NCBI GenBank assembly: GCA_946617545.1
Contig: CAMOKK010000010.1
Span: forward strand, 1-19,164
Length of the DNA stretch: 19,164 nt
From: an uncultured Bacteroidales bacterium
GTDB lineage: Bacteria > Bacteroidota > Bacteroidia > Bacteroidales > UBA932
Direction of reading: 5' to 3'
Shown: piece after piece, positions 1,449-19,164 of the stretch
Layout: every line of letters starts with the position of its first letter
How positions within the stretch are numbered: the stretch's first letter is position 1
The notes under the pieces: model-generated
The model's database searches: none
What the model saw: the letters and a program-made list of their open reading frames with translations, nothing else
Told to the model about the DNA's origin: nothing
Position numbers and translations under genes: made by a program

Positions 1449-2591
1449 ATGAAACCTATTACCACCATTGTTCCCGTCCAGGACAAGAAAATGCTCAAGG
1501 CTTTTATCCACTTTCCCCTGGACCTTTACAAAGATTGTGAAAACTGGGTTCCTCCCTTCGAGGACGACGAATTCAAGTCCCTGGGAGACCAGAATCCTTC
1601 CTTGGATTTCTGTGAAAGGGAACTCTATCTGGCTTATCAGGACAATCAGATTGTGGGGCGCGTAGCCGCCATCATCAACCACAAGGCCGACAAGAAATTC
1701 GGCGAGATTACCGTCCGTTTCGGATGGATAGACTTCATTGAAGACTTCGAGGTGGCCCAGGCTCTCATCAAGGCCGTCATGGTCTGGGGCGCCAAACGGG
1801 GTGCTACGCATATCAAGGGCCCCCTGGGCTTTACGGACATGGACCGCGAGGGCTTGCTGGTAGAGGGCTTCGAGCGCGAAAGCCCCTTTACGGTCATCTA
1901 TAACTATGCCTACTATCCGGAGTACCTGGAGCGGATGGGCTTCACCAAAGATGCCGACTGGACCCAGCGCTACATGGACTTTGACGGCACCCTGCCGTCC
2001 ATGTACCAATATACAGACCTGGTGGAAAAACGCTTCGGCGTGCATATTTACCGCGCAAAGAACATCAAGCAGATGATTCGCCGGGGCCGGGAAATGTTCC
2101 ATGTGCTCAATGCCGCCTTCGACCCCCTCTACGAGTACACCAAGCTCTCCGAGGAGCAGATAGAGAACTATGTGAAGCAGTATGCTCCCGTCATGAACAA
2201 AGACCTGGTGGCCTTTGTGGTGAACGACAAGGACCAGCTGGTTGCCTTCCTGGTAACCATGCCGCATATCAGCTCCGGCGTACGGAAGGCCAAGGGACGC
2301 ATCTTCCCCTTCGGCTGGATGCACATCCTTCCCCAGCTCAATGCCAGGAAGAACCACGTCACGGAAGGCCTTCTGATTGGCGTTCTGCCAGAGTACCAGG
2401 CCAAAGGCGCGGTCCTTCTGATGCTCAAGTACCTGCACGAAAATTACATCCGCCTGGGAATCAAGCGGATGTTAATGAACCCGCAGCTGGAAGACAACCA
2501 TAAGGTGCAGACTCTCTTTGGAGACTACAACCCGCAGCCGTATCAACGCCGCCGCAGTTATGTAAGGGAACTCAGGGCCGAAGAGCTCTAA
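1449..2591 (+). CDS. GNAT-fold N-acyltransferase-like protein, substrate unknown
   Basis: The 380-residue protein belongs to a conserved family that I recall from Bacteroidota, usually annotated as GNAT-family acetyltransferase or hypothetical. The N-terminal half has a GNAT-like strand pattern (ELYLAYQDNQIVGRVAAII) and the block HIKGPLGFTDMDREG. The C-terminal half has GVLPEYQAKGA, which resembles the acyl-CoA pyrophosphate-binding loop (Q/RxxGxG/A) in degenerate form, so two GNAT-like folds in tandem are likely. No signal peptide or membrane segment is visible. The frame is open from a TTG at 1428, but that codon lies inside the promoter element, so the ATG at 1449 is preferred (GTG 1443 is possible). 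Its stop overlaps by two bases the stop of the opposing ACP gene. Facing an acyl-activating enzyme and an ACP, it may transfer an acyl chain; this is inference. Confidence 0.7.
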   Translation: MKPITTIVPVQDKKMLKAFIHFPLDLYKDCENWVPPFEDDEFKSLGDQNPSLDFCERELYLAYQDNQIVGRVAAIINHKADKKFGEITVRFGWIDFIEDFEVAQALIKAVMVWGAKRGATHIKGPLGFTDMDREGLLVEGFERESPFTVIYNYAYYPEYLERMGFTKDADWTQRYMDFDGTLPSMYQYTDLVEKRFGVHIYRAKNIKQMIRRGREMFHVLNAAFDPLYEYTKLSEEQIENYVKQYAPVMNKDLVAFVVNDKDQLVAFLVTMPHISSGVRKAKGRIFPFGWMHILPQLNARKNHVTEGLLIGVLPEYQAKGAVLLMLKYLHENYIRLGIKRMLMNPQLEDNHKVQTLFGDYNPQPYQRRRSYVRELRAEEL

Positions 2592-2833
2592 GAAAGAGCC
2601 TTCAGCACCGCATCGCATACCTCCCCGACGGTTTTGGGCATTTCCACACCGTCGGGGAATTTCATTCCGAACTTTTCTTCCGTGGCCAGGGCCAGCAGGA
2701 GCATGGACAGGGAGTCCACGCCCAGCCCGCGGGAAAGGTCCGTTTCATAGCTTACGCCCGTCAGGTCCGTAGCGGGCCGAATCACCGAAAGAACCTCCTT
2801 GAGGCCGTTCAGCACGTCTTCCCGGCTCATCAT
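2588..2833 (-). CDS. Acyl carrier protein
   Basis: This small acidic protein has 81 residues (80 if the second ATG at 2830 is used). It carries GVDSLSMLLLALATEEKFG, in which the Ser of Asp-Ser-Leu is the expected phosphopantetheine attachment site. It is followed by a helix with the typical EEKFG(M)KFPD pattern and TVGEVCDAV. The tandem ATGATG start overlaps the stop of the upstream synthetase gene (ATGA), so the two are probably translationally coupled. It is too divergent from the housekeeping AcpP to be called acpP; a specialised ACP serving the adjacent synthetase is more likely. It could alternatively be a carrier of a short secondary-metabolite or lipid pathway. It ends tail to tail with the GNAT-like gene, their stop codons sharing two bases. 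Confidence 0.85.
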   Translation of the reverse strand: MMSREDVLNGLKEVLSVIRPATDLTGVSYETDLSRGLGVDSLSMLLLALATEEKFGMKFPDGVEMPKTVGEVCDAVLKALS

Positions 2834-4329
2834 ATACGGGACACTTTCATGCTGCCGGTGCGCTTGAAGTCCTCCGTGCGCACGGTCACTTTGCGGATAT
2901 GATGGGTGGTGGGAAGGGTGGCGTTCACCTTGTCCACCAGGGCGTTCATATAGGACACCACTTCTTCCCAAGGCTTGCCGTCGAAGGCGGGCATGAAGGG
3001 CAGAATCTCGATGGCAATCACGTTGTTGCCTTCCAGCTGGTCTTCCTTCACCATGGCGTCGCGGACGCAAGGATCGGCATAGAAGGGCTCTTCCAGGCTT
3101 TCCGGGCTCACGTTTTCACCGTTGGAAAGCACAATGACGTTCTTGATGCGGCCGGTAATATAGAGGAAACCGTCCTCGTCAAAGCGGCAGAGGTCTCCGG
3201 TTCGCAGCCAGCCGTCCTCCGTAAGGGCCTCGGCGGTGCGCTCGGGGTCTTTGTAGTAACCGGAGAACACGTTGTCGCCCTTTATCCACAGCTCGCCGTC
3301 CACCAGTTTGGTTTCCTGACCGGGATATACGCGGCCGATGGAATGGGGATTGGGCAGCGGGTCCTTGTTGGCCGATGTCAGGTTGGCGCCTTCCGTGAGG
3401 CCGTAGCCGAAGCAGAACCTGACGCCCAGCTTGGTGAAGATGTCCACCAGGCGCGGCGGCACGTTGGCGGCGCCGGCGATAATCAGGCGCAGGCTTCCGC
3501 CCAGGAACTGGGGACCGTACATTTTCACCAGGCCGGCGAGGATGTCGCAGATGCCGGGCACAATGACCAGGACAGTGGGCTTGATGGCGGAAAGCTGGCC
3601 CACGGCGGCTTTCATGTCTTCACAGGTAAAGATGAGGTTACCGGTATAGAAGCAGCCCATGGTGCCGGCAATGAGGCCGAAAACGTGGCTGAAGGGCAGC
3701 AGGGCCAGGTAGCGGTCCTGGCCAATCACCGGGCCCGGCCGGTAGGTGGCGTTGAAGTTGCCGCGCATGAGGGCACGGTGGCTCAGGACGGCACCCTTGG
3801 GGGCGCCGGTGGTACCGCCCGTGAAGAAGAGGGCGGCCGTGCTCTCGGGGTCCACCGGGGTGGAAGGTACGCCCGTATCGGCAATGGAGGCGGCGGGGCA
3901 CACCTTTACGCCCTGCAGTTTGCCGGTGAGCGGCATAAATTCCTCGCGTACAAAGAGGGCGGCCATGTCAAATTTCATGCAGGAGCCCACCAGGGCCATC
4001 TCCGGCAAGCCGGCGGGGATGTTCATGGCCACATATCCGGCCGATGTAATGGCCAGGAACAGCTCGATGGCATCCAGGCTGTTGCGGTCGAAAATGCCGA
4101 TATGGGCACCCTTGGGAAGGCCCAGTCCTTCGATGAAGGCGCGACGGCGGGCCACCCTTTCGCCCAGTTCCCGGTACGTATAGACCTTTCCCCGGTGCGA
4201 AACGGCCGGGTTGGAGGCATACTCGGCGGTAAACCAGTCCACAAACTGGGACATGGTGGGTAAATACTTTAGGCGGCTCAGCTCCTCGGGAGTGAGCATG
4301 GACTCGAAGTACTCTTTACTTGTAATCAT
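2830..4329 (-). CDS. AMP-dependent acyl-CoA/acyl-ACP synthetase
   Basis: The 499-residue protein is an adenylate-forming enzyme of the ANL superfamily. Core motifs are in order: phosphate loop FFTGGTTGAPKG (168-179), FGYGLTEGA (307-315), WLRTGDL (374-380), the hinge ITGRIKNVIVLSNGENVSPE (391-410), and the catalytic C-terminal Lys at 495 (TGSMK), only four residues before the end. TGGTTG in the phosphate loop is the variant common in FadD-type fatty acyl ligases, so a medium- or long-chain acyl substrate is likely. The directly coupled ACP gene suggests that acyl groups go onto ACP rather than only onto CoA. The stop TGA (2832-2830) overlaps the ACP start. The gene starts 16 bases after the serine hydrolase ends, in the same minus-strand operon. 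Substrate not determinable from sequence. Confidence 0.88.
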   Translation of the reverse strand: MITSKEYFESMLTPEELSRLKYLPTMSQFVDWFTAEYASNPAVSHRGKVYTYRELGERVARRRAFIEGLGLPKGAHIGIFDRNSLDAIELFLAITSAGYVAMNIPAGLPEMALVGSCMKFDMAALFVREEFMPLTGKLQGVKVCPAASIADTGVPSTPVDPESTAALFFTGGTTGAPKGAVLSHRALMRGNFNATYRPGPVIGQDRYLALLPFSHVFGLIAGTMGCFYTGNLIFTCEDMKAAVGQLSAIKPTVLVIVPGICDILAGLVKMYGPQFLGGSLRLIIAGAANVPPRLVDIFTKLGVRFCFGYGLTEGANLTSANKDPLPNPHSIGRVYPGQETKLVDGELWIKGDNVFSGYYKDPERTAEALTEDGWLRTGDLCRFDEDGFLYITGRIKNVIVLSNGENVSPESLEEPFYADPCVRDAMVKEDQLEGNNVIAIEILPFMPAFDGKPWEEVVSYMNALVDKVNATLPTTHHIRKVTVRTEDFKRTGSMKVSRI

Positions 4330-4345: not shown

Positions 4346-5482
4346 TTATTTAAGGATAATTTTTTCTATCTGTAACATGAGCCGGTAGCGGTCCCAGTCG
4401 GCCCGGTTGGCGAAAACCAGGAGCAGCGCGTCCTGCTCCGGGTAGCGGGCGGCCAGAATCTTGAAGCCGCCGTTGTCTCCGGTATGGTAAATGCGCCTGG
4501 GCCCTCCGTCATGGGCCGATTCGATGAACCAGCCGTATCCGTACCAGGTGTGAGGCCGGTTCTGATACAGGCTCCAGGGGCTGTCTGAAACCTGTATATG
4601 CGGAGTCATGGCCTCTTGAAGGAGTTCATTTGAAAGGACACTCCCCTTCCTCAAGGCATTCTCCCACTGGACGAATTCATGGGTGGAGGTATAGATGCCG
4701 CCGTCGGGCCGGGTGGCGAAGAAGGTCTCTTCACCATAGTCATATTCGTACCATGCATGCGGGCCTTTGGGCCTTTCCCCCGCCGTCCTTTCTTCCGGCA
4801 TGTCGGAAACATCGGCATATTCATAGCCGTGCGCGGCCTGAGGGTCCTGCGCATCACGGTCAAAATAGACGGTTCGCTCCATCCCGGAGGGAGCAAAAAT
4901 ATGCTCCCGGACATACTCGGGGAAAGATTGCCCGCTCACTTTTTCTACCAGTTGCCCCAGCAGGACGAAGGTGGGATTCATGTATTCATAACTGCTTCCG
5001 GGAGCGAAGTTCCGGTGATCCAGCGCCTTGAGGTATTCCGTGGCCAGGGCCTCGTCTCCCTCTATTTTCTCTTCCCGGCTTAGATAGCCGCGCTCGTCCG
5101 GGATGCCGGAGGAATGGGAAAGCAGATGCTTCAGCTGGATTTCCTTCCAGATGTCACTCTCAAATTCCGGGAAATATTTGCTCACAGGGTCTTCCAAGGA
5201 TATTTTTCCCTCCTCTACCAGTTGGAGCACGGCCACCGCGGTGAACTGTTTGGAAACGGAGGCAATGTTGAAAGCGGTGTTCCCGTCGATGGGGGCGCCG
5301 GTTTCCAGGTTGGCCAGACCATATCCCTTGTCAAAAACCACCTGCTTCCCTTTCAGTACCAGCACGGCGGCACCGGGTTCATCGGCAGGGAAAACCGGCT
5401 TGAGCAGCCGGTCCATCTCACGCTCAAGGGAAGGAGCGCAGGAAACGGCCACAAGGGCGCTTATGAGGACAATTCGTTTCAT
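4346..5482 (-). CDS. Serine hydrolase, class-C beta-lactamase fold lipoprotein
   Basis: The 378-residue protein of the beta-lactamase/PBP4*/esterase family (PF00144) begins with a lipoprotein signal whose lipobox is AVSC, Cys15. The active-site set is complete: S75-V-S-K78 (SxxK), Y167-M-N169 (YxN) and H333-T-G335 (HTG). FNIASVSKQFTAVAVLQLV and LLSHSSGIPD are typical of the family. It should be anchored in a membrane with its catalytic domain in the periplasm or at the surface. Members act as D-Ala-D-Ala peptidases, esterases or D-aminopeptidases; resistance to beta-lactams should not be assumed. The residues after Cys15 (APSLERE) do not form an obvious acidic surface-export signal. The start lies 1 base beyond the priA-like stop, and the acyl synthetase follows 16 bases later, so it is mid-operon. 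Confidence 0.88.
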   Translation of the reverse strand: MKRIVLISALVAVSCAPSLEREMDRLLKPVFPADEPGAAVLVLKGKQVVFDKGYGLANLETGAPIDGNTAFNIASVSKQFTAVAVLQLVEEGKISLEDPVSKYFPEFESDIWKEIQLKHLLSHSSGIPDERGYLSREEKIEGDEALATEYLKALDHRNFAPGSSYEYMNPTFVLLGQLVEKVSGQSFPEYVREHIFAPSGMERTVYFDRDAQDPQAAHGYEYADVSDMPEERTAGERPKGPHAWYEYDYGEETFFATRPDGGIYTSTHEFVQWENALRKGSVLSNELLQEAMTPHIQVSDSPWSLYQNRPHTWYGYGWFIESAHDGGPRRIYHTGDNGGFKILAARYPEQDALLLVFANRADWDRYRLMLQIEKIILK

Positions 5483-5483
5483 T

Positions 5484-7187
5484 TTATGCAGGGTCTACAT
5501 CTATGATTATATGGCCGGTATACTTTCGGGCTTTCTCAAAGGAAGCTACCGTGGCGGCCATCTTTTGTTTTCTATCCGTCAAGGCCCTGTCCCGGGGGAA
5601 AAGGAGCCGGATTTCATCCTTGTAGGCTTCCATGGGAATGCCCAGGGGCTTGAGCTGCGCCAGCAGCTCCCGCGAAAGGTATTCCCTTCTCTTTTCGTTG
5701 CTGTCTTTAAGCAGCAGCTTGACCAGGCGCGTATAGGGCGGATAATGGCAGAAGCGGCGCTCCTCCAGCAGGCGGGAGAGGAAATCTCCGCCTTCCACCA
5801 AGGCCGAGAACACCGGATGAGCGGGTTCCCGGGTCTGAATCACGAAGCGGCGGCCCGGATGGCGGAAGCGCCCCAGCAGCTGGAAGGCCCTTTCATCGGC
5901 CCGGAAATCCTGACGCGAGAGAATGCCGTCGGCAGCAACCAAGGCAACCAGTCCTATTCTGTCGCTTTCGAATCCTCTGGTGGTGAAGGTATTACCCACC
6001 ATGATATCAAATTCTCCTTCGGTAAAGGCGCGGATGGTCTGGGCCTGGTCTTCGGCCGTCCCGTCCAGCAGGCCTATGCGGGCCTGAGGGTACAACTCCT
6101 GCACTTCCGCTTCCAGCTTCCGGCCTTCTTCAAAAGTACGTTTGGGCCCAACCAGCAGCACCTGCTGCCCGGCGTCCATCGTCTCTTTGATATGGGCAAG
6201 CAATTTCAGGGACAGGCTGCCCACCATTCCTTTTTTCCTATACTCTGCACCCGTATCAATGATTTCCCAGTCTTCCTTGCCCCGGGAAACCGGGTCTTCC
6301 TTCAGGCCAACCCGGATAAACCGGCCATTCTGTGCATTGTAGACAGATTCCAAAGAAGGGGAGGAACTGGAAAGAAGCACGCCCGCCTTGTGAATGGAAG
6401 CCAGCATGATGGCACTCTCCCGGGCATGATAGCGCGGAGCCGGGGAATCCTGTTTGTAGGAAGGGTCCTGCTCCTCGTCCACTATCACCAGTCCCAAACT
6501 GCGGAACGGGAGAAAAAGGGCGCTTCGGGTTCCCAGAATCAGCTGGGGCTCCCCTGTCCTAATCTGCTGCTCCACCAGCTTGCGCCGGGCCGGCGAGAGC
6601 CCGCTGTGGTACTTGAGCGTACAGGGATAGTTCTCCGCGAGGGCAATTTCCGGCACCAGGACAAGGACGCTTTTCCCTGCTGCGAGGCTTTCCTCCGCCA
6701 GTTTCAGATAAATCTCTCTCTTCTGTAAGGCCGATATTCCCGTCAGAAGAACGGGCTTGCCGCCCTGAAGGCCCTCACGGATGGAAGGAAGGAGGCTCTC
6801 CCCCACCTTGTCAGGCATGGGAGAAGGCAGTTCCATGCGTTCTGCCGCACTAAGCCGGGAGCCGTGGTTTTTCATGGAAGGATAGGCGGCTTTATAGACT
6901 TCGCCAATGGTGCACAGATAGTATCGGGAAAGGGTTTTCCAAAAAAGAATTTCCTGCTCCGAGATGGCCGGCAGCTTGTCTTCCACCCCTTCCACAGGCT
7001 GGATTTTTTCCGGGGGCAGACCGGGCCGTACGCCCGTTCCGCTGACACAGGCCACATAAAATGCCCCGGCAAACAGGACCCGGACACGGTCACCCACCTT
7101 TACTTGCATCCCCTCCGGAATACGGTAATAAGGTTCCCACTCCAGTTTGAGCGGTAAAATGACCTGTATGAAACACGGCTCTGCCAT
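5484..7187 (-). CDS. priA: PriA-like primosomal protein, shortened and motif-degenerate
   Basis: The 567-residue protein aligns along its length with replication-restart helicase PriA, which is usually about 730-830. Present are an N-terminal 3'-DNA-binding-type domain (roughly 1-100), ILGTRSALFLPF (217-228), the Walker B region VDEEQDPSYKQ (236-246), SSSSPSLES (273-281), DFRADERAFQLL (428-438) and CHYPPYTRLV (480-489). Three hallmarks are damaged. Walker A reads GISALQKRE (150-158) instead of GxTGSGKTE. Motif VI reads LLGRFRHPGRR instead of QVAGRAGR. The zinc-binding block with eight cysteines, expected near residue 350 after VGPKRT, is absent. The segment after PEIALAEN is also short. The frame is otherwise intact and well conserved, which argues for a retained non-ATPase role rather than a random pseudogene. 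ATG 7187 is chosen because the domain begins there and the promoter lies just upstream; the open frame runs on to 7340. Confidence 0.75.
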   Translation of the reverse strand: MAEPCFIQVILPLKLEWEPYYRIPEGMQVKVGDRVRVLFAGAFYVACVSGTGVRPGLPPEKIQPVEGVEDKLPAISEQEILFWKTLSRYYLCTIGEVYKAAYPSMKNHGSRLSAAERMELPSPMPDKVGESLLPSIREGLQGGKPVLLTGISALQKREIYLKLAEESLAAGKSVLVLVPEIALAENYPCTLKYHSGLSPARRKLVEQQIRTGEPQLILGTRSALFLPFRSLGLVIVDEEQDPSYKQDSPAPRYHARESAIMLASIHKAGVLLSSSSPSLESVYNAQNGRFIRVGLKEDPVSRGKEDWEIIDTGAEYRKKGMVGSLSLKLLAHIKETMDAGQQVLLVGPKRTFEEGRKLEAEVQELYPQARIGLLDGTAEDQAQTIRAFTEGEFDIMVGNTFTTRGFESDRIGLVALVAADGILSRQDFRADERAFQLLGRFRHPGRRFVIQTREPAHPVFSALVEGGDFLSRLLEERRFCHYPPYTRLVKLLLKDSNEKRREYLSRELLAQLKPLGIPMEAYKDEIRLLFPRDRALTDRKQKMAATVASFEKARKYTGHIIIDVDPA

Positions 7188-7314: not shown

Positions 7315-8091
7315 ATGGGAAAAATCATTGCGATAGCCAATCAGAAGGGTGGTGTGGGCAAAACCACCACGGCCATCAACCTGGCCGCCTCGCTGGCTGC
7401 CCTGGAGAAGAATGTCCTGGTAATAGACGCAGACCCTCAGGCCAATACCACTTCCGGCCTCAATTTCGACCCGGAGAACGAGCAGCACCGCACGCTCTAT
7501 GAGATTCTCATCGGCAAAATTGCCGCTTCGGACGCCCTCATCCAGACAGAGCTTCCCAAATTGCACATGATTCCCTCCCACATCAACCTGGTGGGTGCAG
7601 AAATCGAGCTGCTGGAAACTCCGGACCGCGAATCCATCCTCAAGAAGGCCCTGGCCCCCCTCAAAGACCAGTATGACTATATTATTATAGACTGCTCCCC
7701 TTCCCTGGGGCTCATAACCGTGAACTGCCTTACCGCAGCGGATTCCGTCATGATTCCCGTGCAGCCGGAGTTCTTTGCCCTGGAAGGCCTGGCCAAACTG
7801 ATTCAGACCATCCGCCTGGTGCAGAACGGAATCAACCCCTCCCTTACCATCGAGGGCTTTGTGGTTACCATGTACGACGGCCGCACCAAGGTACACAACC
7901 AGGTGGTGGCCCAGCTCCGGGACCACTTCAAGGACATGGTGTTCAATACCGTCATCCAGCGCAGCATCCGCCTGAGCGAGGCGCCCAGCTACGGAAAGCC
8001 CATCATCCTGTACGACGTGATGAACAACGGCACCTCCAATTACCTCAATCTGGCAAAAGAAGTTTTAGACAAGAATAAAGATGGCGAATAA
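7315..8091 (+). CDS. parA: ParA/Soj chromosome-partitioning ATPase
   Basis: The 258-residue protein has the deviant Walker A motif KGGVGKTT at residues 11-18 and IIIDCSPSLG as the Walker B region. VIDADPQANTT, QPEFFALEGL and RSIRLSEAPSYGKPI are signature blocks of chromosomal Soj/ParA. ATP-dependent dimers bind the nucleoid and move ParB-parS complexes towards the cell poles. The length is normal for the small chromosomal type, which lacks the N-terminal DNA-binding domain of plasmid ParA. The gene leads a four-gene unit and overlaps parB by 11 bases. The start follows a good promoter (7250-7281); the possible repeat operator just upstream could allow autoregulation. Confidence 0.95.
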   Translation: MGKIIAIANQKGGVGKTTTAINLAASLAALEKNVLVIDADPQANTTSGLNFDPENEQHRTLYEILIGKIAASDALIQTELPKLHMIPSHINLVGAEIELLETPDRESILKKALAPLKDQYDYIIIDCSPSLGLITVNCLTAADSVMIPVQPEFFALEGLAKLIQTIRLVQNGINPSLTIEGFVVTMYDGRTKVHNQVVAQLRDHFKDMVFNTVIQRSIRLSEAPSYGKPIILYDVMNNGTSNYLNLAKEVLDKNKDGE

Positions 8092-8998
8092 TGCGTCCCG
8101 CCTGGGAAAGGGCCTGGGTGCCCTCCTGGGAGGAGAAGACCTCTCCGAGCTCCGCAAACCCGTAGGATATATCAACAAACAGGTGGTCACCGAGACCGTC
8201 CAACCCCAGGACACCTCGGATGTGCTCCGCATCCCCGTGGGCCTCATAGAGCCCAACCCCTACCAGCCCAGAATGAGCTTTGATGCCGATGCCATGCAGG
8301 AGCTCTCGGAGTCCATCCGCACCTTCGGCCTCATCCAGCCCATCACGGTGCGCCGCAAGGGAGAGAAATACCAGATTATCAGCGGTGAGCGCCGGTACCG
8401 CGCCTCCATCATGGCCGGCATGGAAATGGTTCCCGCCTATATCCGTGACGCTTCCGAGCAGGGCATGCTGGAGATGGCCATCGTGGAGAATATCCAGCGG
8501 GAAAACCTGGACCCTATCGAGGTGGCCATGAGTTATCAGCGCCTGATGGAGGAGTGCAATCTCACCCAGGAGCAGATGGCCGACCGCGTGGGCAAGAAAA
8601 GGGCTTCCGTAGCCAATCAGCTTCGTCTGCTGAAACTGCCCGCCAAGGTCCAGCACGACCTCAAGGTGGGCCTTCTGAGCGTGGGACATGCCAAGGTGCT
8701 GCTGGGCGTGGAAGACCCTGTGGCCCAGGAAATGCTCTGTGACCTCATTGTCAAGGGCGGCCTGTCCGTGCGCCAGCTGGAAGAGAAAATCAAGTCCTTG
8801 GACAAGAAGCCGGCTGCTCCCAAGGAAGACCCCGGCGCCCTTCCGGAAATGTACTACAAGCTTCTGGAAAACGTGGGCAAGTACTTCGGGGACAATCTCT
8901 CTCTCCGCCGCAGCCGGGAAGGAAAGGGCACCCTTACCATCAAGTTTGAATCCGATGCCCAGATGGAGCAGTTCCTCCGCGCCCTGGAGCAGAGATGA
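8081..8998 (+). CDS. parB: ParB/Spo0J chromosome-partitioning protein
   Basis: The 305-residue protein opens with RLGKGLGALLGG, the typical N-terminal ParA-contact segment. The ParB/sulfiredoxin CTP-binding domain follows: IEPNPYQPR (56-64), GLIQPITVR, GERRYRAS (102-109) and ENIQRENLDP (136-145). A helix-turn-helix for parS binding lies at about 160-185 (LTQEQMADRVGKKRASVANQL). The C-terminal dimerisation part is about residues 235-305. It would load at parS and spread as a CTP-dependent clamp. The ATG at 8081 lies inside the end of parA, and its stop overlaps the next start (ATGA), so the genes are translationally coupled. No full parS palindrome is seen in the window. Confidence 0.95.
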   Translation: MANNASRLGKGLGALLGGEDLSELRKPVGYINKQVVTETVQPQDTSDVLRIPVGLIEPNPYQPRMSFDADAMQELSESIRTFGLIQPITVRRKGEKYQIISGERRYRASIMAGMEMVPAYIRDASEQGMLEMAIVENIQRENLDPIEVAMSYQRLMEECNLTQEQMADRVGKKRASVANQLRLLKLPAKVQHDLKVGLLSVGHAKVLLGVEDPVAQEMLCDLIVKGGLSVRQLEEKIKSLDKKPAAPKEDPGALPEMYYKLLENVGKYFGDNLSLRRSREGKGTLTIKFESDAQMEQFLRALEQR

Positions 8999-12559: not shown

Positions 12560-14185
12560 ATGAGAAAATGGATTCTGGCATTTCTGATGGCATTTTTACC
12601 GGCCTTTTCCCGGGCACAGGAAGAGTCGGTGCTCCGGGCGGCTCTCTTCCTGTCCGGAGCGTCTTCCGAGGAAGAGGTAGACCAGGAGTGGGTCTGGCGT
12701 CTGGAAACTGCCGGGAAGGTGAAAATCAATTCCGCCCGGCTCCGTCCCGGCCTGCTGACAGATTTCCAGATAGCTTCGATTGGCCGATACAGGGCCTCCT
12801 ACGGAGACATCCTATCCTGGGAGGAACTGGCCCTGGTAGACGGTTTTGACCGGGAAACGGTGCGTGTCCTCCGGCCTTTCCTTTCGCTGGAATCGCGCCG
12901 GCTTCCCGGAGCCACGGATACGGTAAAAGTCCGCTCGGAGGCCATTCTGCGGGGTACGCTCAAAAATTTCGGCATCAAGGCCAAAACAGGCACGGATACA
13001 TGGAGGGTGGGAGGAGCCTGGCGTGCGCCGGACTGGACGGCCCACGCAGAGTGGTCCGGCGGGCCGGTGCGCCTCATCATAGGAGACTTCAATGCCCGTT
13101 ACTCAGAAGGCCTGTGCTTCTGGAGCGGCTTCTCCATGGAAAGCCTGAGCACGGTAGACGCCTTTTTCAAGCGCCCCACCGGCCTCTCCCCCGTGTGGTC
13201 CTATTCCTCGACCGATGTGCACAGGGGCTTGGCGGCAGAATACGAGGGGGCCGGCTGGCGAGTCTCCGCCTTCGGGACGCTCAAAAAAGTCTTCGGCCTT
13301 CATGGTGAATATCTGGGCCGATTGGGCCAGGCAAGCGTTACGGCGGGCTGGTCGCAGGCCGATGGCTGGAGCGCTTCCATGGCCGGCAGAATGAATCTTC
13401 GGGGCTGGGATTTGGGGGCCGAGGCCGCTTTCCGACACGGTTCCCCTGCCGGAAAGGCTTCCTTGCGGAGCAGGGCCGGAGAAAACGGAAAATGGGCCCT
13501 CCAACTTCGGATTATCCCCAGCCGCTTCAGCGGAAAGAAGAACGGAGAATATGCCTTGGCGGGCGGCTATTCCCTCAAAAGCGGCCGATGGGTGCAGCTG
13601 GCCGGTCAAAGCGGCTTCGGAAGTTCTGTTCCTGCCTGGGATCTGTCTTTGACGGTGGACGCTTCCCTGCTGCCCCGCCCCGGAGTGGACCCCCGCCGTC
13701 ATCAGCTGCGGGCTTATCTGACGGGCAGCTGGCAGTTTGCATCGGCCTGGAAGGGGGAAATCCGGGTGACGGAGCGATACCGTAATTACGAGCCCTCCCG
13801 TCTCTCGCTCAGAGGAAGCATCCAGTTTTCCAGCGGTCCCTGGCTTTCCGTTCTCCGCGCCGAGGGCGTTCATTGTAAAGACTGGGGCTGCCTCTGCTAT
13901 TTGGAAGGAGGATATAAAGGCACTTCCCTTCAGGCCTATCTGCGTTTCAGCGGCTTTTCTATCGCGAACTGGGACGACCGCATCTATGTTTATGAACGGG
14001 ATGCGCCGGGGAATTTCTCCGTTCCGGCCTATTCCGGAAAAGGAATTTCCCTGCAGGGAATGGCAGGATACAAACTTCGCCTGGGCAAATGGACTTTGAA
14101 AGCCTATTTGCGGGGCGGGTACATGATAAGGGTGCAGAAAGAACCGTCTCCTACGCTGGCCGTGCAGTTACAGGTTCAAAGATAG
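12560..14185 (+). CDS. Helix-hairpin-helix domain outer-membrane beta-barrel protein
   Basis: The 541-residue protein begins with a signal peptide (cleavage near SRA-Q, residues 17-20). A ComEA-like helix-hairpin-helix region follows at about 54-110 (VKINSARLRPGLLTDFQI; RASYGDILSWEELALVDGFD). The rest is rich in alternating aromatic and polar strands typical of a beta-barrel, including IIGDFNARYSEGLCFWSGF. This two-part layout is recurrent in Bacteroidota, where I know no assigned function; the HhH part would be periplasmic and the barrel in the outer membrane. Bacteroides homologues, as I recall, are usually longer. No exact promoter was found; a TTTG-19-TATATTTTG arrangement at 12431-12462 is a possible imperfect one. 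Divergent from hpt, and 53 bases before the next gene, which has its own promoter. Confidence 0.75.
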   Translation: MRKWILAFLMAFLPAFSRAQEESVLRAALFLSGASSEEEVDQEWVWRLETAGKVKINSARLRPGLLTDFQIASIGRYRASYGDILSWEELALVDGFDRETVRVLRPFLSLESRRLPGATDTVKVRSEAILRGTLKNFGIKAKTGTDTWRVGGAWRAPDWTAHAEWSGGPVRLIIGDFNARYSEGLCFWSGFSMESLSTVDAFFKRPTGLSPVWSYSSTDVHRGLAAEYEGAGWRVSAFGTLKKVFGLHGEYLGRLGQASVTAGWSQADGWSASMAGRMNLRGWDLGAEAAFRHGSPAGKASLRSRAGENGKWALQLRIIPSRFSGKKNGEYALAGGYSLKSGRWVQLAGQSGFGSSVPAWDLSLTVDASLLPRPGVDPRRHQLRAYLTGSWQFASAWKGEIRVTERYRNYEPSRLSLRGSIQFSSGPWLSVLRAEGVHCKDWGCLCYLEGGYKGTSLQAYLRFSGFSIANWDDRIYVYERDAPGNFSVPAYSGKGISLQGMAGYKLRLGKWTLKAYLRGGYMIRVQKEPSPTLAVQLQVQR

Positions 14186-14207
14186 AGAATTATTCCTTGA
14201 AAATGTG

Positions 14208-14215
14208 TATATTTG
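14208..14215 (+). promoter_or_regulatory. -7 element upstream of the MMPL exporter operon
   Basis: TATATTTG (14208-14215) is an exact TAnnTTTG element, identical to the one at 1423-1430. No convincing -33 box is visible. Initiation near 14221 leaves about 18 bases before the ATG at 14239, which supports that start over the longer open frame from 14089. Confidence 0.5.
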
Positions 14216-14238
14216 TAGGTTTTAATAAACGAACGCTT

Positions 14239-16728
14239 ATGCACAGAATCTTTCTGCCCGTATATCATTTCTTCAAAGACCGTAAGGCCCTGTTGTATAC
14301 CCTTTTGATAGCCTCCACGGCTGTCTTCGCCTGGTTCGGTTCCAAGATTCAGCTGGAAGAGGACATTGTCAAGCTCCTTCCCCGCTCCTCCACCTCCAAC
14401 GAGCTGGCATTCAGCGATATCGGCCTTATAGACAAAATCTTTGTCCAGGTTACCTCACGGGACACTTTGAATCCGGTCCCCTCCAAGAAACTGGGTCAGG
14501 TGGCCGAGCAGTTCTGCCAGGCCGTGATGGAAAGGGACAGTGCCACGCATTATCTGACAGGTGCGCTGGCCCGGCTCAGCATAGACACCGCCATGGAAGC
14601 AATGGACTTTGGCCTTACACATCTGCCTTCTTTCATTGATACTGCCTGGTATAAGTACATTGATGCCGCCCTGGAGCCGGATGCTTTTGCTGAGCAGATG
14701 GAGGCCAATTACCAGCTGGTGATGGAGGATGAAACCGGAGACGATTCCCAACTGGCCAGCATGGACCCGCTGGGCCTCAGGAACGCCCTGTTCCAGGATT
14801 TGTTCGCAGACAGCAACATGGGCGGTTTCGCCATGGAGGACGGCTATCTTTTCTGCCCGGACAAGACCGTGGCCCTGGGCTTCCTCACGCCCGGCTTCGC
14901 CTACACCAATTCCGGTGAAGCCACCCGCATGATTGACATGCTGGACAAGGTGGCGGCCCGGCTGGAGGCCGAAAACCCGGATGTCCGTATCCTGATGCAC
15001 GGCAACCCCCACGGAAGCGTTTCCAATGCCGATACCATCAAGAAAGACTTGATCTGGACTATCGGCCTGTCCCTGCTCATTATCCTGGTCATCATGATGC
15101 TGAGCTTCCACCATCTCTCCTATATCTGGCAGCAGGTAGTTCCTGTCATATATGGCTCCCTCTTTGCCCTGGCCTGCATGTACTGGCTCAAGGGCGTCAT
15201 GTCCCTTATGGCCCTCGGTCTTAGCGCCGTGGTCATGGGCGTAGCCCTCAGTTACTGCCTGCATCTGCTCATCCACTATTATTACAGGGGGGATGCGGAA
15301 CAGACGCTCCGGGAAGAGTCCACGCCCATCTTCCTGGGCTGCCTCACCACCATCGGCGCCTTCCTGGGCCTCCTGTTCACGGAAAGCGACCTCCTGCGGG
15401 ATTTCGGCCTCTTTGCCACCTTCGCCCTCATCGGCAACACCTTCTTCGTGCTGGTGTTCCTTCCTCATTTCCTGCGCCCTTCGCAAATCCGCTTCAAACG
15501 CACGCATGGCTTCCCGCTGGTGGAAAAAATCAACAGCCTGCCCTGGGACCGCAATCCCTGGGTCATCGGCACCATGGTGGTCCTTATCCTCGTCGGAGTG
15601 GCCATGAGCCCCCGCGTGAAGTTTGACAGCGACCTCAATAACCTGGACTATGACAATGCCACCCTGCGGGAAAGCCAGGACTTGTATAACCGCAAGAACA
15701 ACGACGGCTACATGCATGAGTTCTTCGCCGCCTGGGACCAGGACAACCTGGACAAGGCGCTGGAATACAACGAAGGCTTCATCCATGTGCTGGATTCCCT
15801 GAAGGAAACGGGCATGGTCCATTCCTACGCTCCCATCGGCAAGCTCCTCCTGCATTCCACCGCCAAACAGCAGCAGCGGATCGATGCCTGGAACGCCTAC
15901 TGGACGCGCTCCCGGGTGCGGGACTTGCGGCTCCGCCTGGCCGAGGCCGAGCGCCAATATGGCCTCCCTTCCGGCTTCTACGACCCTTTCCTGGGCTTTA
16001 TCCGAAGTAAATACGAGCCTGGAAACCTGATTGAATCCGGCATTGTTCCCTCGGGTCTCCTCTCCAATTATGTAGAGAAGCAGGAAAGCGGCCGCTACAT
16101 GATTTTCACCGACGTCTCTTACGACAAGGAAGTCACCGCCCCCCTGTACAAGCAGCTCACTTCCACAGACCATGTCTTTGTCCTCAATCCCTTCTACTAT
16201 TGCCGCGACATGGTGGAGATTGTGCATGACGACTTCAACACGACGCTGTGGATTTCCAGTATCTTCGTGCTCCTGGTGCTCCTGCTGAGCTTCCGCAACA
16301 TCTGGATAGCCTTGGTGGCCTTCTTCCCCATGTTCATCAGCTGGTATGTGATGCAGGGTTATATGGCCATCTTCGGCCTGGAATTCAACCTGATCAACAT
16401 CGTTATCTCCACCTTCATTTACGGTATCGGCGTAGATTACAGCATCTTTGTGATGGAGGGCCTGCTGGCCGAAGCCCGCAAGGGAGAAAACAAGATGCTC
16501 AAATTCCATAAGGTGGCCATCTTCTACAGCGCCCTCATCCTGGCGGTGGTTACCTTCTCCCTCATCTTCGCCCGCCATCCGGCCATCCATTCCATCGGCC
16601 TTATCACGCTGATAGGCATGGCTTCCACCATCCTGATAACCTATTCCCTGCAACCCTGGATTTTCCGCAAGCTGTGCAAGATTCCCTTCTTCCGCCGCGG
16701 ATTCCGTATTCCTGAAAACCCCGAATGA
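14239..16728 (+). CDS. MMPL/RND-family exporter (HpnN-like)
   Basis: The 829-residue inner-membrane protein has RND/MMPL topology. There is one membrane segment near 17-35, a large periplasmic loop to about 268, and a cluster of membrane segments from about 270 to 455. A second large loop follows, then a final cluster from about 666 to the C terminus. MMPL motif GIGVDYSIF occurs at 729-737 with Asp733 as likely proton-relay residue; the equivalent place in the first half reads GVALSYCLH (334-342) with Ser338 instead. Relatives move lipids or other hydrophobic molecules from the inner membrane using proton motive force. The ATG at 14239 fits the first membrane segment and follows a promoter. 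The stop overlaps the start of the FakA-type gene (ATGA), suggesting coupled expression and a lipid-related substrate, which is inference. Confidence 0.85.
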   Translation: MHRIFLPVYHFFKDRKALLYTLLIASTAVFAWFGSKIQLEEDIVKLLPRSSTSNELAFSDIGLIDKIFVQVTSRDTLNPVPSKKLGQVAEQFCQAVMERDSATHYLTGALARLSIDTAMEAMDFGLTHLPSFIDTAWYKYIDAALEPDAFAEQMEANYQLVMEDETGDDSQLASMDPLGLRNALFQDLFADSNMGGFAMEDGYLFCPDKTVALGFLTPGFAYTNSGEATRMIDMLDKVAARLEAENPDVRILMHGNPHGSVSNADTIKKDLIWTIGLSLLIILVIMMLSFHHLSYIWQQVVPVIYGSLFALACMYWLKGVMSLMALGLSAVVMGVALSYCLHLLIHYYYRGDAEQTLREESTPIFLGCLTTIGAFLGLLFTESDLLRDFGLFATFALIGNTFFVLVFLPHFLRPSQIRFKRTHGFPLVEKINSLPWDRNPWVIGTMVVLILVGVAMSPRVKFDSDLNNLDYDNATLRESQDLYNRKNNDGYMHEFFAAWDQDNLDKALEYNEGFIHVLDSLKETGMVHSYAPIGKLLLHSTAKQQQRIDAWNAYWTRSRVRDLRLRLAEAERQYGLPSGFYDPFLGFIRSKYEPGNLIESGIVPSGLLSNYVEKQESGRYMIFTDVSYDKEVTAPLYKQLTSTDHVFVLNPFYYCRDMVEIVHDDFNTTLWISSIFVLLVLLLSFRNIWIALVAFFPMFISWYVMQGYMAIFGLEFNLINIVISTFIYGIGVDYSIFVMEGLLAEARKGENKMLKFHKVAIFYSALILAVVTFSLIFARHPAIHSIGLITLIGMASTILITYSLQPWIFRKLCKIPFFRRGFRIPENPE

Positions 16729-18320
16729 ACCTGAACGCCCAACTATACCTGAACCTGGTTAGGGGCGGTGCCGCCCGCCTGGCAGAGAACCGCCAGGAAA
16801 TCAACGACCTCAATGTGTTTCCCATCCCGGACGGGGATACGGGTGACAATATGTACATGACCATCGAGGCCGGTACCCATGCCTCCGGGAACACGCTGGG
16901 AGAAATGGCCGCCGCGGTTTCCGGCGGCATGCTGCTGGGAGCCCGGGGCAACTCCGGCGTTATCCTTTCCCGTATCTTCGCCGGCATGGGAAAGGCCTTC
17001 AAGGGGCTTGAGCAGGCCGATGTCCAGGCCCTCTCCAAGGCCATGGCCGCCGCCGTAAAAGAAGCCTACGGCGCCGTTTCCCATCCGGTGGAAGGAACCA
17101 TCCTCACGGTGCTCCGGGAGGGCGTCCGGGCGGCCGAGGGCTCTTCTTCCATAGAGGAATACATGGATTTGATGATAGCCGGCATGGACCTTTCCCTGCA
17201 GCATACGCCGGAACTCTTGAACGTGCTCAAGAAAGCCGGTGTGGTGGACAGCGGCGGTGCCGGGCTCCTCTCCGTTGCAGAAGGAATGCGGGCGGCCCTC
17301 AAGGGCGAGATGGCCTTTGAAACGGAAGCTGCGGCGCTTCCGCAGGCTGCCCCAATTGATTTTGACGCTTTTACGGAAGACAGCGAACTGGAGTTTGGCT
17401 ATTGCACGGAGTTCCTCCTGAGGCTCCAGCGCTCCAAAGTGGACCTGGAACATTTTGATGAGGGGGTGATATCGGCCTGGCTGGCCACGCAGGGAGATTC
17501 CCTGGTGTTTTTCCGGGACGGTTCCATCGTCAAGGTGCACATTCATACCAAAGACCCCGGTGCGGTGCTTTCCAAATGCCGGCAATGGGGCGAATACCTT
17601 ACCGTCAAGGTGGAGAACATGACCCTGCAGCACCATGAGAATCACATGGACAAGCGCTTCAAGAGAAACGAGAAAGCCTTTGGAATTGTAACAGTTGCAG
17701 CCGGAGAAGGCCTGGAAGCCACTTTCCGGGAAATGGGGGCCGATGCCGTCATCCGGGGCGGCCAGACCATGAACCCCTCTGTGGAGAGTTTCATCGAGGC
17801 CTTCCAAAGCGTACAGGCCCAGACCATCCTGGTCTTCCCCAACAACGGCAACATCCTCCTGACAGCCCGGCAGGCGGCCGGCCTCTATAAAGACGCCCGC
17901 GTAGAAGTGGTTCCCACCCAGACGCTGGGAGAAGGCTACTACGCCATGGCCAACCTCCAAGCGGATCTTCCCATAGAAGAGCTCCTGCAAAGCCTGGAGG
18001 AAGCGGCAGCCTCCGTTACCACCGGCTCTGTGTCCAGGGCCATCCGCAGCACGGCCGAGGCCCGGGAAGGAGATTATATCGGCTTCTGCGGAAAGGAGAT
18101 TCTTTGCAGCAGCCCTTCCCGAGAAGACTGCCTGAAGGCGCTGGCCGCCAAGCTGGACGCCGCATCGGCCGACCTTGTGATTCTCCTGCAGGGCGGAGAA
18201 GTTCCCGCGGAGGAAGCCCGTACCATGCAGGAAAGCCTGCAAAAGGCCTCTCCCCTTTCGGAGGTTATTCTGATTGACGGAAAACAAGCTGTTTACGATT
18301 ATATCTTAGTGCTATGTTAA
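16725..18320 (+). CDS. fakA: DAK2-domain fatty acid kinase subunit (FakA/YloV type)
   Basis: The 531-residue protein has the DAK2 kinase domain at about 1-200, with DLNVFPIPDGDTGDNMYMT (nucleotide and Mg binding Asp residues 36-41), LLGARGNSGVILSRIFAG (71-88), HPVEGTILTV and DSGGAGLLSV. The middle domain (about 225-305) has GYCTEFLLRL, GDSLVFF, KVHIHTKDPG and VKVENMTLQHHEN. The C-terminal domain (about 315-531) has TVAAGEGLEATF and VFPNNGNIL. All three domains match FakA, the ATP-dependent kinase that phosphorylates a fatty acid presented by FakB to give acyl phosphate for PlsX/PlsY. It overlaps the exporter stop by four bases and the following degV-type start by seven. FakA is best known from Firmicutes, so its presence here is noteworthy. 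The symbol is assigned by domain match, not experiment. Confidence 0.85.
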   Translation: MNLNAQLYLNLVRGGAARLAENRQEINDLNVFPIPDGDTGDNMYMTIEAGTHASGNTLGEMAAAVSGGMLLGARGNSGVILSRIFAGMGKAFKGLEQADVQALSKAMAAAVKEAYGAVSHPVEGTILTVLREGVRAAEGSSSIEEYMDLMIAGMDLSLQHTPELLNVLKKAGVVDSGGAGLLSVAEGMRAALKGEMAFETEAAALPQAAPIDFDAFTEDSELEFGYCTEFLLRLQRSKVDLEHFDEGVISAWLATQGDSLVFFRDGSIVKVHIHTKDPGAVLSKCRQWGEYLTVKVENMTLQHHENHMDKRFKRNEKAFGIVTVAAGEGLEATFREMGADAVIRGGQTMNPSVESFIEAFQSVQAQTILVFPNNGNILLTARQAAGLYKDARVEVVPTQTLGEGYYAMANLQADLPIEELLQSLEEAAASVTTGSVSRAIRSTAEAREGDYIGFCGKEILCSSPSREDCLKALAAKLDAASADLVILLQGGEVPAEEARTMQESLQKASPLSEVILIDGKQAVYDYILVLC

Positions 18321-19164
18321 AGTTATACACGGATACCGATACCGATTTCACCCCTTCACTGGCGGCCGAATACGGGTACAGCCTCATCTCCATGCCTTAC
18401 AGCATCGAGGCCCGGACCACCTATCCTTACGTTGATTTCGAGACCTTCGACGCGCATGCCTTCTATGACAGGCTCCGTGGCGGCGTTCTGCCCACCACCA
18501 GCGCCATCTCCAAGGAACAGTACATCCAGTACTTCGAGAAGGACTTCGCGGCCGGAAACGAGATTCTCTATGTCCACTTCTCCCGCGCCATGACCAATAC
18601 CTTCGACGCCATGGACCAGGCCGTAGCCGAGCTGAGGGAGAAGTACCCGGCCGCCCGTTTCGAAGAGATTGACACCAAGGGCATCACTACCATCAGCTAC
18701 GCCATCGTGCGCGAGGTGGGAGACCTGGTGAAGGCCGGCAAGACCCTGGACGAAGTCCTGGCCTGGGCCGCCGTGGAGGTAGACCATTTCGCCATGTATT
18801 TCTTTGCCGATGACCTCAAGTTCTTCCGCCGCAGCGGCCGTGTAGGAGGCCTTGCCGCCACCATGGGCACCCTGATTGGGGTGCGTCCCCTCATCCACAT
18901 GAGCCAGGAAGGCAAGATGGTTTCCGTCGGCACCGCCAAGGGCCGGCCCAAGGCCATCGACTTCCTGCTCGGCAAGGTGGGAGAACTGGGCTGTGACCTG
19001 CAGGAACACCGGATTTGCATCGGCCATTCCGACGCTCCGGAAATTGCCCATGAACTGGGCCGCCTGATTGAGGAGAAATACGGGAAACAAAATCTTGTTT
19101 ATGTGGACGTGAACCCCACGGCCGGCAGCCACTGCGGCCCCAACGGCGTGGGCGTCTGCTTCCA
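18314..19164 (+). CDS. DegV-family fatty-acid-binding protein (FakB type), 3' end cut
   Basis: 283 residues are visible and the frame is still open at the window end; the family is usually 280-300, so only a few residues are missing. Features: KLYTDTDTDF at the N terminus (the TDSxxDLP position), LPTTSAISKEQY (59-70), KFFRRSGRVGG with the conserved Arg region (169-179), IGVRPLIHMSQEGKM (188-202) and GSHCGPNGVGV near the end, the place of the phosphate-contacting His/Gly loop. DegV proteins bind a fatty acid and, as FakB, present its carboxylate to FakA. The start ATG lies inside the end of fakA (CTATGTTAA), a seven-base overlap, which strongly suggests the pair acts together. The loop HFSRAMTNTFDAM (88-100) departs from the usual SSGLSGTY pattern. 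Confidence 0.83.
   Translation, partial: MLKLYTDTDTDFTPSLAAEYGYSLISMPYSIEARTTYPYVDFETFDAHAFYDRLRGGVLPTTSAISKEQYIQYFEKDFAAGNEILYVHFSRAMTNTFDAMDQAVAELREKYPAARFEEIDTKGITTISYAIVREVGDLVKAGKTLDEVLAWAAVEVDHFAMYFFADDLKFFRRSGRVGGLAATMGTLIGVRPLIHMSQEGKMVSVGTAKGRPKAIDFLLGKVGELGCDLQEHRICIGHSDAPEIAHELGRLIEEKYGKQNLVYVDVNPTAGSHCGPNGVGVCF

Follow-up and report, generated by a model that had tools for sequence, protein, structure and literature searches.

A conserved, motor-less PriA in an uncultured gut Bacteroidales bacterium, probably a fork-recognition scaffold

A close known counterpart of the protein considered here is PriA of Deinococcus radiodurans, which, as reported in PMC4504706, has no measurable ATPase, yet binds forks and DnaB. 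The same source gives two findings on the Escherichia coli protein: the substitution K230R abolishes its ATPase, and a PriA whose ATPase is dead can still build primosomes on model substrates, which raises the question whether the PriA helicase is needed in nature. In the E. coli PriA-PriB-fork structure, as set out in PMC10175261, the 3'-end-binding domain (3'BD) holds the 3' end of the nascent leading strand, a loop of HD1 wedges the junction and the C-terminal domain (CTD) helps to bind the leading strand; the cysteine-rich region (CRR) helps to form a pore for single-stranded DNA (ssDNA), and carries a wedge hairpin and the dock for PriB. The locus examined here lies in a stretch of 19,164 nucleotides, called the window below, from an uncultured Bacteroidales bacterium (contig CAMOKK010000010.1 of assembly GCA_946617545.1). 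At 5484..7187 on the minus strand it encodes a CRR-less PriA homologue of 567 aa with a degenerate Walker A motif. By sequence, phylogeny and conservation this is a real, selected, motor-less PriA; its ATPase has very likely been lost, and its most likely function would be that of a scaffold that recognizes forks and loads DnaB.

In its longest reading the open reading frame (ORF) opens with a TTG at 7340 and spans 618 aa; the ATG at 7187, at which relatives also start, gives the 567 aa. This protein scores 252.1 bits with TIGR00595 (priA), above the curated cut-off of 230.35, and 67.5 bits with PF17764, the 3'BD family (cut-off 22.7); it falls below the equivalog cut-offs of PRK05580, which are narrower than TIGR00595. 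A first-pass annotation, made from the letters of the window, had described a PriA with altered Walker A and no motif VI core or zinc domain, about 160 residues short and with its frame kept; alignment with relatives upholds this description in its main points. The shortfall is that against the 732-residue chain of E. coli PriA in 8fak, and CRR-bearing full-length copies among the aligned segment-length rows measure 645-907 aa.

Taken from the N terminus, all on the minus strand, the protein begins with the 3'BD (residues 1-104; 6876..7187), followed by a short linker of low pLDDT (residues 105-126; 6810..6875) in place of the winged helix. The gap from 3'BD to Walker A is 46 aa here and 47 aa in two CRR-bearing sisters, P0053 and L047; since these sisters also lack a winged helix, its loss predates that of the CRR. 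Walker A reads GISALQKRE (residues 150-158; 6714..6740), as against GVTGSGKTE in canonical relatives. Motif II (DEEQ) is present, with a strongly conserved HD1 loop after it (residues 234-262; 6402..6488); on our own reading, this stretch is the wedge loop. At the junction G355/R356 (6120..6125) HD2 has lost the CRR, and none of the eight zinc cysteines is found. A block RQDFRADE (residues 425-432; 5892..5915) is invariant in the 26-row CRR-less alignment and variable in more distant CRR-less rows; the remnant of motif VI, GRFRHPGRR (residues 439-447; 5847..5873), lies in a segment six residues short of the canonical one. The CTD (residues 476-567; 5487..5762) includes HYPPYTRLV. The retention of Walker B, of the N-terminal DNA-binding domain and of HYPPYTRLV had likewise been called correctly.

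None of the features of an active helicase (Walker A GxTGSGKT, the motif VI arginine finger, an eight-cysteine CRR, the winged helix) is found in this protein; it does have one mark of a pseudohelicase of the D. radiodurans type, substituted Walker A residues in a retained fold. In the Pfam scan it received no call for a DEAD-type domain and none for a zinc ribbon. Its AlphaFold model aligns to 6dcr, 6dgd, 8fak and 4nl4 over 510-539 residues. Part of the P-loop is replaced by a predicted helix, and helix A begins three residues earlier than in the model of a canonical sister; the closing of the ATP pocket, raised by the first-pass annotation, is to this extent suggested by the model. That annotation had also raised the possibility of a second, canonical priA: none was found, and PF18319 (zinc ribbon) had no match, in this metagenome-assembled genome (MAG), which is 57% complete. 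One further PriA hit, a 1091-aa frame on contig C57 also matched by the RecG profile, is probably Mfd. The window gene is the orthologous, and probably the sole, PriA of this uncultured gut Bacteroidales bacterium; those relatives with a stated source (Bacteroidales or Bacteroidia MAGs, by record title) come mostly from ruminant gut sites or horse faeces.

The short form is widely shared within the genus. Three samples bear on this: 61 genomes of the genus, with CRR states read from aligned cysteines; 198 genomes across the order, tallied with the PF18319 profile; and the best 120 hits of a protein search. In the genus sample, a zinc ribbon is present in 28 of 61 genomes (26 over the cut-off; 15 of the 25 good genomes), all 28 with the eight aligned cysteines; 25 have a PriA that lacks the CRR, and the remaining 8 have no match or no assignable state among the matches listed. 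The priA of G022 is a contig-end fragment. Order-wide, the 3'BD was matched in 190 of 198 genomes and the zinc ribbon in 189 of these, the exception being the genome of the window; besides that genome the sample has a single member of the genus, together with one genome from another genus of the family, and the profile probably misses at least one case (Caulobacter matches PF17764, not PF18319). CRR-less PriA is thus not seen outside the genus, where near neighbours are thinly sampled. The best 120 protein hits comprise 86 with none of the eight cysteines, 33 with all eight and one, P0110, with two; the string GK[TS] is missing from 76 of the 86 and present in 10, two of them doubtful (P0032, a false hit, and P0019, with a shortened loop).

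Both forms occupy the same place. The divergent parA-parB pair beside the window gene (7315-8091 and 8081-8998, plus strand) has the same position at canonical priA loci and serves as an orthology marker: ParA lies in the fetched flank at 22 of the 26 CRR-less loci and at 23 of the 31 that bear a CRR. Fourteen duplicate rows were removed from the locus alignment; L042 and L087 come from separate contigs of the same MAG, L087 holding the N-terminal part only.

What has been kept is uneven along the protein. Each position with at least 95% conservation across 51 CRR-bearing rows was compared with 41 CRR-less rows, and counted as kept where at least 80% of the latter had the same residue. This holds for 13 of 13 positions in the 3'BD, 8/9 in residues 186-230, 13/16 in motif II and the HD1 loop, 3/3 in residues 448-475 and 11/13 in the CTD; the motif III region (5/9), residues 293-330 (6/9) and the V-VI region (7/16) are partly kept; the linker (0/2), motif I-Ia (4/18) and HD2 (1/19) are mostly lost. 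The 3'BD and CTD together (24/26) differ from motif I-Ia, HD2 and V-VI (12/53) with Fisher p 3e-9, the regions having been chosen after seeing the table. Selection kept the 3'BD, the HD1 loop and the CTD, and released the CRR with its share in the ssDNA pore, its wedge hairpin and its PriB dock. By the Nei-Gojobori method, dN/dS is 0.14-0.22 (dS 0.53-0.78) among the window gene and its closest relatives G019, L033 and L034, 0.08-0.24 in six other CRR-less pairs and 0.06-0.15 in six CRR-bearing pairs, a seventh being saturated. Intact orthologues in the same genus had been named beforehand as a sign of local decay. They exist, in the 28 genomes above, but the reading of local decay fails, because 25 of 61 genomes share the short form, at the same locus, with no in-frame stop in CRR-less matches among the matches listed and with dN/dS well below 1. 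Nor is chance a sensible explanation, as the same absences are common to the ORFs of dozens of relatives. A search for the pocket that holds the SSB tail, which we take to be W82, Y86, K370, R697 and Q701 in Klebsiella PriA, was too weak a test to use: by profile alignment, W82 and Y86 correspond to W83 and Y89 (kept in 41/42 and 42/42 CRR-less rows), K370 to R289 (R or K in 35/42), and equivalents of R697 and Q701 are not clearly kept.

One way to understand this pattern, and the one we consider probable, is that the window PriA is an ATP-independent pseudohelicase, a fork-recognition scaffold for the reloading of DnaB. Without CRR, motif VI core and canonical P-loop, it would neither hydrolyse ATP nor unwind DNA. 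By analogy with E. coli, the 3'BD would grip the 3' end of the nascent leading strand and the HD1 loop would wedge the fork junction, with the retained CTD presumably serving as it does there; abandoned forks would be recognized by the protein, which would bring in DnaB, probably together with the loader DciA, and clearing of the lagging strand, if needed, would be left to other helicases such as RecG. The scaffold role proposed in the first-pass annotation stands as the best-supported reading, the function itself being one that we infer; its premise that the ATPase is normally needed for restart is too strong, given the primosome assembly by ATPase-dead E. coli PriA described in PMC4504706.

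The partners that such a scaffold would need are present: DnaB was matched in 59 of 61 genus genomes (57 over the cut-off) and DciA in 59 of 61. G009 and G017 each contain two full-length matches to DnaB that exceed the cut-off. In E. coli, PriA helicase mutations suppress recG defects. A link between loss of recG and CRR-less PriA was rejected here: RecG passes the cut-off in 50 of 61 genomes, 21/25 CRR-less and 23/28 CRR-bearing by hand count, and the CRR-less genomes below it have partial genes (G000, G001, G011) or none (G051). Hits to the RecG profile at any score add up to 61 of 61, a figure that takes in Mfd and PriA.

Several observations weigh against a motor-less scaffold of this kind. 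K156 and D237-E238 are still present in the window copy; PF00271 matches it, below the cut-off only; and PF18074, the PriA C-terminal family, went uncalled in the Pfam scan, although the CTD aligns as far as its last part both by profile and by structure. The E. coli CRR also helps to bind lagging-strand ssDNA, and fork binding could therefore be weaker here. At DnaB identities of 0.7-0.8, median PriA identity is 0.42 in CRR-less pairs (93) and 0.51 in CRR-bearing pairs (161), and the most divergent CRR-less proteins have a CTD of 42-51 aa instead of about 90; lower identity and shortened CTDs would both fit partial decay. At DnaB identities of 0.9-1, PriA identity is 0.74 in CRR-less (5 pairs) and 0.70 in CRR-bearing copies (11 pairs), and canonical PriA also evolves fast in this genus. 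The proteins with CTD segments of 42-51 aa (G004, G006, G008, G011, G023, G027, G031, G043, G047, G058 and L082) are the most reduced PriA in this analysis.

A second perspective supposes that the protein has been repurposed, as a fork-binding regulator or a factor recruited by SSB, while restart takes another route. Motor, CRR and winged helix are all missing, and the 3'BD is the most constant part, as this would lead one to expect; but the locus is identical to that of canonical priA, DnaB and DciA are retained, and no genome among the matches listed has both types of copy. Two cases are ambiguous in the last respect: among those matches, G002:C89 and G020:C39 are second, contig-end fragments with a 3'BD besides the main priA contig, and may be a split gene, a second copy or contamination. 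We regard repurposing as unlikely.

Slow pseudogenization, with PriA dispensable and the window copy an intermediate in its decay, we rate as somewhat less likely again. The lower PriA identity seen in CRR-less pairs at intermediate DnaB distances, the shortening of the CTD in the fastest rows, and the genomes in which, among the matches listed, priA has no match (3 of 61: G007, G015, G025) or weak matches alone, in the range of Mfd hits (4 of 61: G021, G032, G036, G048), are what such decay might produce. It accords poorly with the absence of in-frame stops and the dN/dS values already given, and with the conservation of 3'BD positions across the 41 CRR-less rows; moreover, these 7 genomes are fewer than the 9.6 expected to lack PriA from completeness alone, so that there is no case for species that have wholly lost it. 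That the protein is still driven by ATP through a non-standard pocket is very improbable: K156, D237 and E238 do remain in the window copy, but Walker A varies among the four closest loci (3/9 positions invariant, 33%, against 70% overall, the lysine column reading K in the window and K, M, K in G019, L033 and L034), the motif II Glu is kept in 19/42 and the motif III Ala in 15/42 CRR-less rows, and the predicted helix would take the place of part of the P-loop.

The route to the motor-less state can be partly ordered. In 99 distinct locus rows, CRR and motif VI go together, every row in which the two can be read having either both or neither; an apparent motif VI in L038 is an artefact (QKGRCSR, in a segment six residues short). 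GKT is intact in every readable CRR-bearing row and Walker A is degenerate in most CRR-less rows; because no readable CRR-bearing row has lost GKT, CRR and motif VI went first and Walker A later. In the proposed mechanism, then, the former two would be lost together and Walker A would decay afterwards. The Walker A lysine column has Arg in 28/42 and Lys in 7/42 CRR-less rows, which are related and not independent; the column is uncertain on account of loops that are 2-3 residues short. In 19 aligned rows (12 CRR-less or more reduced, the rest canonical), the excised part begins just after an RRSY-like strand in HD2 and stops short of the helix that follows. Strict coupling is broken by P0110, a 604-aa PriA from the protein set with 2/8 cysteines, yet GKT and motif VI intact; it may be an intermediate or an assembly indel. 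The idea that CRR-less copies with intact Walker A are early stages was partly withdrawn when L043 and P0119 proved to be mosaics; early-stage status is possible for P0035, P0037, P0038, P0051, P0056, P0081, P0093, G054 and L088.

As to how the state is distributed, we tentatively suggest that a C-terminal module without CRR and motif VI has one origin or a few, and that homologous recombination at the same locus carries it into the resident priA of other lineages, making ATP-independent scaffolds of helicases; Walker A would then decay, repeatedly to the Arg of Deinococcus, and restart would need fork recognition by PriA, not its motor. Several independent losses in place of CRR and motif VI, without recombination, are also possible, though we incline to doubt them. 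A tree of DnaB and RpoB (59 rows, 52 with state, about half with DnaB only) requires 6 changes of state, at least 4 on starred branches; the PriA tree, built from the whole protein but omitting rows of 400 aa or less and the trait columns, requires 4, and the AU test rejects one origin for all (p 1e-74). Trees of the halves, from 41 rows chosen by hand, tell against losses in place: the N half has 7 changes (6-8 in bootstraps) and the C half 2. For the C half the AU test does not reject one origin (p 0.174), and there L041 and L043, which the N half places in the canonical clade, join the window clade with 100/98.6 support.

L043 in particular resembles a canonical gene with an exchanged HD2 region. 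Its identity to canonical L061 is 92-98% up to about residue 300 and 48-63% beyond 320; the two share 4.76 kb (parAB neighbours and the 5' part of priA) at 90.8% nucleotide identity, a match that breaks in HD2 and resumes further on at 82-86%. Among codons for the same residue, 74/311 differ before residue 325 and 55/139 after it (p 0.001). The mosaic is not one assembly error, since an independent protein cluster, P0119, carries it too (97.5% identical along its length). The motor-less HD2 segment thus probably also spreads by recombination, on this sequence evidence. Against such spread stand the possibility of long-branch attraction in the short C half, which is the main doubt, and the failure to find a donor sequence. 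The window gene and L034 priA differ at synonymous sites (pS) by 0.07 in columns 181-240, 0.17 in 421-480 and 0.26-0.58 elsewhere, a mosaic that reads as if gene conversion were frequent.

Related species with full or motor-less PriA at the same locus form a natural experiment on the need for the helicase. They show which surfaces of PriA evolution retains (3'BD, HD1 loop and, mostly, CTD), and suggest a way to DnaB reloading that is independent of the CRR.

The remaining neighbours are of other kinds. Between priA and an acyl-CoA-ligase-like gene (2830-4329, minus strand) lies a serine hydrolase like AmpH or class C enzymes (4346-5482, minus strand; below family cut-offs), which is beside priA in near relatives and absent from the L037 locus; a frame like acyl carrier protein, judged by eye (2588-3070, minus strand), overlaps the 3' end of the ligase-like gene. 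Further on, an HpnN-like RND protein (14089-16728) precedes adjacent genes of YloV/FakA type (TIGR03599, 503 bits) and DegV/FakB type (TIGR00762) on the plus strand (16725-19162), possibly a fatty-acid kinase pair.

Among known systems, canonical PriA helicases (E. coli and Klebsiella; 4nl4, 8fak) differ from the window protein in having CRR, winged helix, motif VI core and GKT. The closest solved structure is 6dcr (Z 34.1), a winged-helix deletion construct of E. coli PriA, which likewise lacks that domain but retains CRR and ATPase motifs. Actinobacterial PriA is a natural PriA without recognizable helicase motifs. It is not the closest lineage: the window protein scores 278 bits with PRK05580 and 66.6 with the PRK14873 profiles, which we take to be those of actinobacterial PriA. 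D. radiodurans PriA resembles it in the degenerate Walker A, with Lys changed to Arg in most CRR-less relatives (the window copy keeps Lys); it has been shown to bind forks and DnaB with no ATPase or unwinding. The Deinococcus lineage apparently keeps its CRR, as PF18319 matches the Thermus and Deinobacterium controls, whereas the protein here has lost CRR, motif VI core and winged helix, and a single genus holds both states. In the open-licence literature, taken by titles and starts of abstracts, neither CRR-less PriA nor loss of PriA was found for Bacteroidales; measured against that literature, a pseudohelicase PriA is already known from Deinococcus, and what was not found in it is the added loss of CRR and motif VI, with the presence of both states in one genus and the signs of recombination.
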